This document shows positions 27,444-30,198 of a stretch of DNA of 35,167 bases, piece by piece. Origin of the DNA: Rhizomicrobium sp. (GTDB lineage: Bacteria; Pseudomonadota; Alphaproteobacteria; Micropepsales; Micropepsaceae). Each line of letters starts with the position of its first letter. Position 1 is the first letter of the stretch. The notes under the pieces are model-generated. The model made no database searches, was not told the origin of the DNA, and was given only the letters and a program-made list of their open reading frames with translations. A program made the translations under genes and the position numbers. The stretch spans positions 1 through 35,167 of the forward strand of contig JANWJQ010000015.1 in assembly GCA_025451875.1 (NCBI GenBank), in the 5' to 3' direction.

Positions 27444-28148
27444 CGTAAGATGATAGAGGGTCCCGTGCGCACTGCCAATTGCGTTCAGGCGGGTGGTTTC
27501 TGGAACGCGGCCGACGCGCCCCCACCGTATCGAATGGTTTTCACGTTGAGCATGGACGAGGAACTGCCGTCGGCGACCCGACCATCGTTTGCGATCGGTG
27601 TGATGAAATTCAGAATTTGCGTCTCGGCTATGCGATGAACATTCCTCGGTCGATCGTCATCATCTTCAGATCATTTGAAAGCCAATGAATTGAACACTGT
27701 CCACCCTATTCGTCACTTCGACGGGGGGACATGTGGATGGAATGGGATTTTAAATTGGAGAGAATACCGCGGATTCGCTCTCATCTTGGAGAGCTCCGAT
27801 ATTCGTCCGTCTCCGCCCGATCACCTACTGATGGATGGCGGCGGAAAAACAAGTTCTTCCAATAGTCGGAAGAACCTCGCGGGCGACCCGCGCACGGCGG
27901 GACTTTGCAATGCTGTCGTAGGACCGCCGAAGCGTCGCACTGAAACCTTCCGATAAGAATCAAAAGGCCTGATTGGAAGGAAAATTTAAATTTTAAGCTC
28001 CAAGGTTGTTCATAATCGCCCCGAGGCCCTTTTGGACAAGCCCGTCTTAGCGGTTCAATCAGAAATCTGACTGGTCCCGGAAGTCGGCTCTGTTCACGAG
28101 AGCCTGGCCGCGCCAGCGTCGCGAGACGCATGGTGGGAAGCCCGGTTT
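27444..28148. other. Long intergenic region upstream of the Fic locus
   Basis: About 700 bases with no frame I would call a gene; short frames on both strands lack binding sites and known motifs. It holds the divergent promoter region of the AraC gene and, at 28085-28112, one copy of a 28-base repeat found again at 30206-30233. The composition is less GC-rich than the flanking genes, consistent with acquired DNA. Confidence 0.45.
28085..28112 (+). repeat. 28-base direct repeat, copy A (left of Fic)
   Basis: This segment (CGGCTC, T/C, GTTCACGAGAGC, C/G, TGGCCGCG) matches 30206-30233 at 26 of 28 positions in the same orientation. The two copies bracket the Fic gene about 2.1 kb apart. It also contains a 6-bp inverted repeat (GGCTCT and AGAGCC). 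Confidence 0.6.
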
Positions 28149-28283
28149 CTTAAGTACCAAATTTTCGGTGATTTTACCACTTAAACCCCGAAAATTCGGC
28201 AGCAAGGCTGGATAATTCCCAGAACCCATCTCTTAACTTCCATTTATTCGGTTTTATGGTGTCTTAAACCCCAAAAAATCGGT
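28149..28283 (+). promoter_or_regulatory. Four 21-bp direct repeats, probable operator array of the Fic gene
   Basis: Copies at 28149-28169, 28180-28200, 28232-28252 and 28263-28283 fit CTTAA, three variable bases, CC, six mainly A/T bases, TCGGY. Copies 1-2 and 3-4 are each 31 bp apart (about three helical turns), and the pairs are 52 bp apart. Copy 2 contains a near-palindrome (CCGAAAATTCGG). The last copy ends 24 bases before the start codon, so bound protein would block the promoter. The AbiEi-like domain of the Fic protein is the likely ligand. Confidence 0.75.
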
Positions 28284-28307
28284 ATGCTGGCCAAGCAGGA
28301 GTCCTTA

Positions 28308-29798
28308 ATGCCCGAATTTTCCGTCGCCAACCTCCCCGAGATCTTTGTCTCCGACACCGCGATTTCCAAGCCGGTGTCGGAAGCGGTGGAGCGTGGCCAA
28401 TTGCGTCGGCTCGCCTCCCGGCTCTACAGCCGCAACCTCACGGAAGATCCCGCCAAGCTGGTCCGCCGCAACTGGTCGCGGCTGATTGCGGGCTATTACC
28501 CGGACGCCCTCATCGCCGACCGCACCGCGCTGGAGAACCAGCCGGCCGAAGACGGCTCGGTGTTTCTTATCTCCGACAAGAAGCGCGACACCAAACTGCC
28601 CGGCGTGACGTTCCGGCCGCGAAAAGGCCCGGGGCCGCTCGACAGCGACAAGCCCTTTGTGGGCGGCGCGCGCCTGTCGTCGGTGCCGCGCGCCTATCTC
28701 GAAAACATGCGCGCGTCGCGCGCGCGCGACAATCGGACTCCGCGCACGCTCACGCGCGCTGAGCTCGAGACCCGCCTGGACGCCCTCATCCGCCGTCAAG
28801 GCGAGGATGCGGCCAACAAGCTGCGCGACGAGGCACGCGCCATCGCGCCGCAGCTCGACCTGCAGAAAGAGTACGAAGAACTGAGCGCGCTCATCGGCAC
28901 TTTGCTGGGCACGCGCGACGCCAAGCTGGAAAGTCAAGCCGGCAAGGCGCGCGCGGCCGGGCACCCCTTCGATCCGGATCGGGTGCGCCTGTTCGAAACG
29001 CTGTTCCGCGCCTTGCGCGAAACCGTCTCGCCCGAACGGCCCGCGCCGGAGCGCGACGCAGACGCCAACGGCACGCTCGCCTTTTTCGAGGCTTACTTCT
29101 CGAACTTCATCGAAGGTACGGAATTTTCCGTCAAGGAAGCCGAAGACATCGTCTTCAACGGCGTCATTCCCGCCGAACGGCCGCAAGACGCACATGATGT
29201 GCTGGGCACGTTTCGCATCGTCTCGGATCAGGGCGAAATGCAACGCACGCCCAAGAACTTTGCCGAGTTCATCGACTTTCTGAGACGCCGCCACGCGATC
29301 ATCATGGAAGCGCGGCCGGATAAGAACCCGGGCAGTTTCAAGACCAAGTCCAACCAGGCCGGCATGACGGTGTTTGTGACACCGGAGCTGGTGATCGGGA
29401 CGCTGGAAAAGGGCTTCGAGTTTCTGGGCGCCTTGGCCGAACCGCTTCAAAGAGCTGCCTTCATGATGATGCTGGTGAGCGAAGTGCATCCGTTTGCCGA
29501 CGGCAATGGCCGGATTGGCCGCATCATGATGAACGCCGAGCTGGTGGCGGCCGGCCAGGAGCGCATCATCGTGCCCACCGCGTTCCGCACCGATTACCTG
29601 GGTCCGCTCAGGGCGTTCTCCCACAACGGCGAGACGGCGCCCCTGATCCGCATGCTCGATGTGGCGCAGCGCTACACGCACGGCATCGACTGGCGCAATC
29701 TGGAGAGCGCGCAAGCGATGCTGGAAAAAACCAATGCGTTTGCGCAAGGCGAGGACGCCAAGCTGCACGTCGACTGGCAGAGCTGGCCTACGAAATAG
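28308..29798 (+). CDS. Fic-domain enzyme with AbiEi-like N-terminal domain
   Basis: The start at 28308 is set by AGGAG six bases upstream; the ATG at 28284 directly abuts an operator repeat. The 496-residue protein begins with a winged-helix-like region similar to AbiEi antitoxins (SEAVERGQLRRLASRLYSRN, DPAKLVRRNWSRLIAGYYPD and IADRTALE). A helical middle follows. The Fic domain carries SNFIEG (about 265-270), matching the inhibitory (S/T)xxxE(G/N) motif. The catalytic loop HPFADGNGRIGR (about 394-405) has the His and phosphate-binding residues intact. Fic enzymes usually AMPylate a hydroxyl side chain; the target is unknown. Because inhibition motif and enzyme are on one chain, no separate antitoxin is needed. 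Confidence 0.92.
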   Translation: MPEFSVANLPEIFVSDTAISKPVSEAVERGQLRRLASRLYSRNLTEDPAKLVRRNWSRLIAGYYPDALIADRTALENQPAEDGSVFLISDKKRDTKLPGVTFRPRKGPGPLDSDKPFVGGARLSSVPRAYLENMRASRARDNRTPRTLTRAELETRLDALIRRQGEDAANKLRDEARAIAPQLDLQKEYEELSALIGTLLGTRDAKLESQAGKARAAGHPFDPDRVRLFETLFRALRETVSPERPAPERDADANGTLAFFEAYFSNFIEGTEFSVKEAEDIVFNGVIPAERPQDAHDVLGTFRIVSDQGEMQRTPKNFAEFIDFLRRRHAIIMEARPDKNPGSFKTKSNQAGMTVFVTPELVIGTLEKGFEFLGALAEPLQRAAFMMMLVSEVHPFADGNGRIGRIMMNAELVAAGQERIIVPTAFRTDYLGPLRAFSHNGETAPLIRMLDVAQRYTHGIDWRNLESAQAMLEKTNAFAQGEDAKLHVDWQSWPTK

Positions 29799-29801
29799 CC
29801 G

Positions 29802-29943
29802 CCGCCATCACCACCACCGCCATCGTCGACGACGACGACATCAACAACAACACCGTCATCATCAACGGCACCGTCGCCACCGCCAACACCATCAACGGCA
29901 TGAAGAAGAAGATGATGATGATCATCATCATGATGGTGATGGG
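29802..29943. repeat. Trinucleotide-biased low-complexity tract
   Basis: Directly after the Fic stop, about 140 bases consist almost wholly of NCA, NCG and later GAN triplets (CAC, ATC, GTC, GAC, AAC). It ends in a perfect 20-base palindrome at 29912-29931 (ATGATGATGA and its complement). Open frames across it encode runs of His/Asp, Met/Ile or Val and are composition artefacts. In the next frame the Fic gene would gain a His-rich tail. The rest of the gap to 30198 shows no gene. Confidence 0.7.
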
Positions 29944-30198
29944 TCTTGCGACAGAGGCAATGCTCGTCAGAGCCGAGACTGCATACACGCCCGGTCCACA
30001 AAAGCCCGGCCGCGCGACGCGTGACGCGCGGGTCGCACACCGCCCGCCAGCAGGTTATCAACGGACGCTTCAAGGTGCCCGCAATGTTGGAATGATCTCC
30101 GATCGGCGAGACTGGGATGGAATGCCCTCATCCGCCGGCAGGCTGATGGCCGAACATCTGCGCCAAGGATCGAAGCCCGAAGGGCGGAGACGCGAGCG

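Follow-up and report, generated by a model that had tools for sequence, protein, structure and literature searches.

Class II Fic proteins make up about 80% of the Fic family, yet their function and control are almost unstudied (PMC9755527). One of them, CccR of Yersinia pseudotuberculosis, uses an HTH domain to repress its own promoter (PMC9755527), and for another, CbFic2 of Coxiella burnetii, DNA has been reported to switch the activity from AMPylation to de-AMPylation (PMC10628234). Autorepression is also described for AbiEi, a protein with a winged HTH (wHTH) and a C-terminal domain (CTD) whose monomers bind 23-bp sites over the promoter (PMC3985639), and for Rv2827c, a two-domain wHTH plus CTD autorepressor with two pairs of 23-bp sites (PMC7319586).

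Here, we analyzed a stretch of 35,167 nt from Rhizomicrobium sp. (GCA_025451875.1, contig JANWJQ010000015.1, positions 1–35,167, forward strand), referred to below as the window. It contains a gene whose product, by structural modeling and profile comparison, joins an AbiEi-like N-terminal half to a Fic enzyme with conserved motifs, and whose upstream region carries an array of direct repeats, one copy of which lies over the start codon. We consider it probable that this gene is a one-gene module under its own control: its AbiEi half would act as repressor by way of the phased array, and its Fic half would be autoinhibited.

Domain composition of the AbiEi-Fic protein

The features of the locus are given in Table 1. 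The gene start was taken as the ATG at 28308, which is backed by homologues; an in-frame alternative is the ATG at 28284.

Table 1. Positions of the features in the window and of three homologues on phage-like contigs
Feature	Positions	Strand	Basis or remark
Pair 1 (distal), copy 1 of the operator-like direct repeat	28148..28168	+	
Pair 1 (distal), copy 2 of the operator-like direct repeat	28179..28199	+	31 bp from copy 1
O1, copy 1 of the proximal pair, at about -77	28231..28251	+	layout kept across the family
O2, copy 2 of the proximal pair, at about -46	28262..28282	+	31 bp from O1
TATGCT, weak candidate -10 hexamer directly 3' of O2	28283..28288	+	by sequence
AGGAG, Shine-Dalgarno-like	28297..28301	+	by sequence; similar motif in 27/41 homologues
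O3, fifth repeat, start codon and codons 2–6	28303..28323	+	about 41 bp from O2
AbiEi-Fic fusion gene	28308..29798	+	496 aa
Winged-HTH-like segment, residues 1–45 (AbiEi N-terminal domain)	28308..28442	+	model and profile comparison
AbiEi C-terminal-domain-like segment, residues 46–205	28443..28922	+	structure comparison
Fic fold, residues about 251–480	29058..29747	+	Pfam and structure comparison
Class II inhibitory motif SNFIEG, residues 265–270	29100..29117	+	
Fic active-site motif HPFADGNGRIGR, residues 394–405	29487..29522	+	
Homologue at L048	2986-4449		among tail genes
Homologue at L044	3001-4512		between tail-assembly and minor-tail genes
Homologue at L051	2992-4491		beside major head gene

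Since the Fic half masks the N-terminal domain in a whole-protein structure search, the N-terminal domain was folded separately. Residues 1–205 alone gave a pLDDT of 92.2 (AlphaFold2), and the first match in the structure search was AbiEi (6y8q; Z 9.9 over 160 residues). Rv2827c (1zel) followed at Z 6.1 over 180 residues, and the chains ranking between these two were MenT-type nucleotidyltransferase-like proteins, which match residues 51–199 only. When profiles were compared with hhalign, the N-terminal profile matched DUF6088 with an E value of 1.9e-5, whereas a DeoR control gave 0.16. The first-pass annotation, made from the sequence alone, had proposed that the N-terminus resembles AbiEi, and both the structure search and the DUF6088 comparison bear this out. 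Pfam AbiEi models had no match among 31 family members, the PADLOC AbiEi models each matched at most 1/31 members (at about 1e-3), and the sequence models of Pfam and NCBIfam left the N-terminus unmatched, the identification coming only from fold comparison and hhalign. Because the curated AbiEi sequence models fail to match, we place the resemblance at the level of the modeled fold and not of curated family membership. The modeled wHTH is compact, and a first helix that appears shortened casts some doubt over its mode of DNA reading; nor is the domain strongly basic, with six K or R and five D or E in residues 1–45.

For the whole protein, the model (AlphaFold2, 19 sequences) had a pLDDT of 88.8. 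Residues from about 237 to 467 matched FICD in the structure search with Z about 22, and the Pfam Fic match had an E value of 5.9e-13. The protein has both sequence hallmarks of class II Fic enzymes, namely an (S/T)xxxE(G/N) motif N-terminal to the core and a Fic fold with HxFx(D/E)GNGRxxR. SN[FY]IEG and HPFxDGNGRxxR were kept in 51/51 full-length homologues, so that the inhibitory motif first noticed in the window's enzyme is present in all family members. The Fic half is predicted to be a protein-AMPylating enzyme whose activity is blocked by the glutamate of its own SNFIEG motif.

The direct-repeat array in the window and in homologues

Four 21-bp repeats in two 31-bp-spaced pairs had been described at first, and all of them were located as claimed, but the count is five: a further repeat, O3 (CTTAATGCCCGAATTTTCCG, 28304–28323), had been missed. 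It was recovered as a match to a degenerate repeat pattern and includes the ATG start codon. From repeat to repeat, the spacings are 31, 52, 31, and 41 bp, or approximately 3, 5, 3, and 4 turns of B-DNA. Allowing at most two mismatches, the degenerate pattern had five matches in the window versus 0.08 expected, a number reached by 0/100 shuffles. A stricter pattern was run against the whole assembly (2.98 Mb, 81.6% complete) and gave five forward and no reverse matches, all at the Fic gene; the reversed control pattern gave two and four matches (forward and reverse, respectively). Since the repeat pattern is confined to the Fic locus in this assembly, the array is apparently a local operator and not part of a regulon.

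A simple scan of the window found no sigma-70 promoter, and matches of at least 5/6 to TATAAT occur at -26 to -21 in 11/41 homologues. None of the known RNA elements and tRNAs looked for was found. Immediately 3' of the Fic stop codon, the window contains a trinucleotide-rich low-complexity run (29798–29960; CACCACC, GACGACGAC, ATGATGATG).

We then turned to homologues, which were collected at full length by tblastn and genome searches; 51 of them, 35–92% identical, were examined, and 41 non-redundant homologue regions were used for the upstream comparison. Throughout these 41 regions the layout is kept, and the repeat sequence differs from clade to clade, for example TTGTTGACATT in L051, AAATTAACAAAAGTTTGCA in L048, CTTATGCGAAACTGAnAGACA in L025, and AAAAACACGACA in L027. 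The first-pass annotation had staked its proposal on repeats being found upstream of homologous Fic genes, and homologues do carry a clade-specific version of the array.

To put numbers on this layout, we computed an anchored autocorrelation across the 41 homologues. The dominant peak was at 31 bp from about -77, with a mean excess of 5.75 of 18 and a background sd of 0.60; the next peak, at 41 bp, started at about -45 and reached the start codon. The 31-bp peak was still present in 19 representatives below 60% identity (5.45) and was absent from 107 control ORFs (maximum 0.77). Taken singly, 34/41 homologues had a 31 ± 1 bp pair at p < 0.05 versus dinucleotide shuffles, and 7/41 fell short of this level. 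Several distant members (L036, L022, L048, L049, and L025) have a second upstream pair with 30- to 31-bp spacing, which makes the "two pairs" a repeated theme. An inverted-repeat operator as in AbiE was also considered and rejected, its best excess being 2.14 versus 5.75 for direct repeats.

The best start-codon copy lies 40–43 bp from O2 in 34/41 homologues. Because this copy is degenerate, few instances are individually significant: shuffling homologue by homologue gave p < 0.05 in only 13/42, and the pooled and third-position tests are decisive. For the third-position test, the offset was picked on codon positions 1 and 2 alone, and position 3 was then scored. Third codon positions agreed with the upstream repeat in 96/205 cases (47%) at the 40- to 43-bp offset and in 46% at 72–75 bp, the O1 distance, compared with 20–32% at the remaining offsets tested (about 25% at most of them). 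This excess at the coding start therefore shows a constraint on the DNA itself, distinct from the protein constraint.

We also compared operator divergence with protein divergence by partial Mantel tests, which are confounded because codons 2–6 are themselves operator. The partial r was 0.11 (p 0.057) for the wHTH and 0.22 (p 0.0015) for Fic given the wHTH; operator divergence follows the whole protein without singling out the wHTH.

Stand-alone AbiEi_4-family genes at L076, L078, and L080 seem to have a repeat (GCTACGATA) reaching into the start codon, and such copies over the start codon may be widespread in the autoregulation of AbiEi-type genes.

Distribution and gene neighborhood

Full-length homologues occur in alpha-, beta-, and gammaproteobacteria and in Bacteroidota, on plasmids (Novosphingobium, Sphingorhabdus, Rhizobium, Variovorax, Alteromonas, Hymenobacter, and Bacteroides), and on phage contigs, with some on IMG/VR contigs; within the same genus the distribution is patchy, with homologues in 8 other genomes. 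On three different phage-like contigs, the homologue sits within a structural gene cluster (Table 1). A self-repressed gene with its own promoter inside a phage late region is usually termed a moron, and we infer that the phage-borne AbiEi-Fic homologues are morons, that is, apparently self-regulated accessory genes. For plasmids and phages alike, the cassette would represent an autonomously regulated accessory gene.

No neighboring ORF of at least 60 aa was conserved across 41 loci, and a conserved partner gene was rejected, the largest neighbor cluster covering only 3/41 loci. In the window, the three ORFs flanking the Fic gene encode AraC-type, HTH_3, and DUF2127 proteins, and no AbiEii (DUF1814) toxin gene adjoins it. 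At L023 (1950–2046) and L024 (about 1997–2253), DUF6088 (AbiEi-like) genes near two homologues have upstream elements that are inverted and not direct repeats; a neighboring DUF6088 protein as reader of the array was rejected on the grounds that these genes have palindromic elements of their own.

By L014 lies L019 (1501–2262; G005:C580), a 3' Fic-gene fragment covering residues 243–496 and 91% identical to the window gene. About 1.1 kb off and on the opposite strand, the same genome has a full AbiEi-Fic gene that is 55% identical to the window's. This arrangement suggests that, at this one site, the gene has been acquired and has decayed repeatedly.

Proposed mechanism, alternatives, and known systems

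In the mechanism that we favor, the AbiEi-like half would bind sites of about 21 bp, each probably occupied by a single protomer, by analogy with AbiEi and Rv2827c. The sites would be those at about -77, -46, and -5 (over the start codon), together with the distal pair in the window. Since their spacing is about 3 and 4 helical turns, bound protomers would align on one face of the DNA, and such a row would cover the promoter and the ribosome-binding region and so repress the gene. The Fic half would meanwhile be kept inactive intramolecularly by the SNFIEG glutamate. The array itself suggests that the gene's own protein very probably binds it and represses the gene, and the Fic half, once released, may be growth-inhibitory.

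Several other explanations were weighed against this mechanism. Repeats are common near mobile genes, and those described here might be the outcome of chance or recombination (iterons, att-like sites, or transposon remnants) with no regulatory role. However, the 31/41-bp geometry stays anchored in 41 homologues despite varying sequence, third positions are constrained at the coding start, and the controls are without signal, which makes this explanation extremely improbable. The array might instead be read by another regulator, either a host factor or the product of a neighboring gene. In that case the AbiEi-like half would have lost DNA binding and would only assist Fic, as a scaffold or by recognizing targets. 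The short and weakly basic wHTH would fit such a loss, as would an operator divergence with no specific tie to the wHTH. Nevertheless, the array accompanies the gene through phyla, plasmids, and phages with changing sequence while neighbors are unconserved, and the DUF6088 neighbors at L023 and L024 possess inverted-repeat elements of their own, so we regard an outside reader as quite improbable.

The remaining alternatives concern what the enzyme does. Class II Fic enzymes are mostly autoinhibited and many are without known toxicity, which speaks for a housekeeping or signaling AMPylator whose level is held low by autorepression. Such a non-toxic role is possible, if somewhat unlikely, given that the gene's patchy, mobile distribution, its AbiEi half, and its layout for self-repression resemble defense or addiction cargo. 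By analogy with CbFic2, binding of adjacent protomers along the array might also set the oligomer and thereby turn AMPylation off or bring about de-AMPylation, the operator acting as antitoxin. This would be in line with the reported switch of CbFic2 to de-AMPylation upon DNA binding (PMC10628234), with an array that would seat several protomers on one DNA face, and with the invariance here of the inhibitory Glu, on which de-AMPylation by CbFic2 and FICD depends. Plain repression is, however, enough to account for the array, and we consider control of the enzymatic state by DNA unlikely. About equally unlikely is a role of the DNA as an addiction or defense switch, in which one protein would be toxin, antitoxin, and repressor, and binding of neighboring protomers along the phased array, its start-codon copy included, would both silence the gene and hold Fic off or in de-AMPylation mode. 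If true, loss, dilution, or invasion of the operator DNA would free active Fic, and the gene would constitute a one-gene addiction or phage-defense device.

The AbiEi-Fic family offers a concrete candidate control element, namely a conserved phased operator with a start-codon copy, together with the fold of an AbiEi repressor, all within a single portable gene common to chromosomes, plasmids, and phages. Its clade-specific operator versions amount to a natural data set on DNA recognition by AbiEi-type proteins.

The first-pass annotation knew of no described case with this architecture. As a general statement this was too strong, as CccR and CbFic2 precede the principle, and self-repression by a class II Fic protein is already known from CccR. 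What stands is the exact architecture: an AbiEi-Fic fusion, a 31/41-bp direct-repeat array, and a start-codon copy were not found in the open-access literature searched, and the architecture, the operator, and the start-codon copy appear to be undescribed.

By structure, the closest relatives of the Fic fold are SoFic and FICD, which have an N-terminal inhibitory helix and, unlike the window protein, lack an AbiEi half; we know of no comparable operator for either. The inhibitory motif is in the same chain, with no separate small antitoxin gene conserved nearby, unlike in class I FicTA. CbFic2 likewise joins a DNA-binding domain to a class II Fic enzyme, but that domain is a C-terminal DeoR-type HTH and its operator is not defined, whereas here an N-terminal AbiEi-like half is accompanied by an array. 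CccR, too, combines an autoinhibited Fic enzyme and a DNA-binding domain in one polypeptide and represses its own promoter. In CccR, however, Fic is N-terminal and the HTH C-terminal with no AbiEi domain, while here the AbiEi-like half comes first, followed by Fic. CccR is a T6SS effector whose operator consists of just two inverted 10-bp boxes at a distance of 26 bp (PMC9755527), in contrast to direct repeats of about 21 bp, 31 bp apart, with one copy in the start codons. With AbiEi and Rv2827c, the protein shares the two-domain wHTH plus CTD fold, as far as the model goes. Those repressors are paired with a separate AbiEii/DUF1814 toxin gene, whereas here the Fic enzyme is fused, and their sites are inverted repeats with a 3- or 13-bp gap, as opposed to direct repeats with a gap of about 10 bp. 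The head-to-tail direct-repeat arrangement is thus a distinct solution from the inverted pairs of AbiEi.
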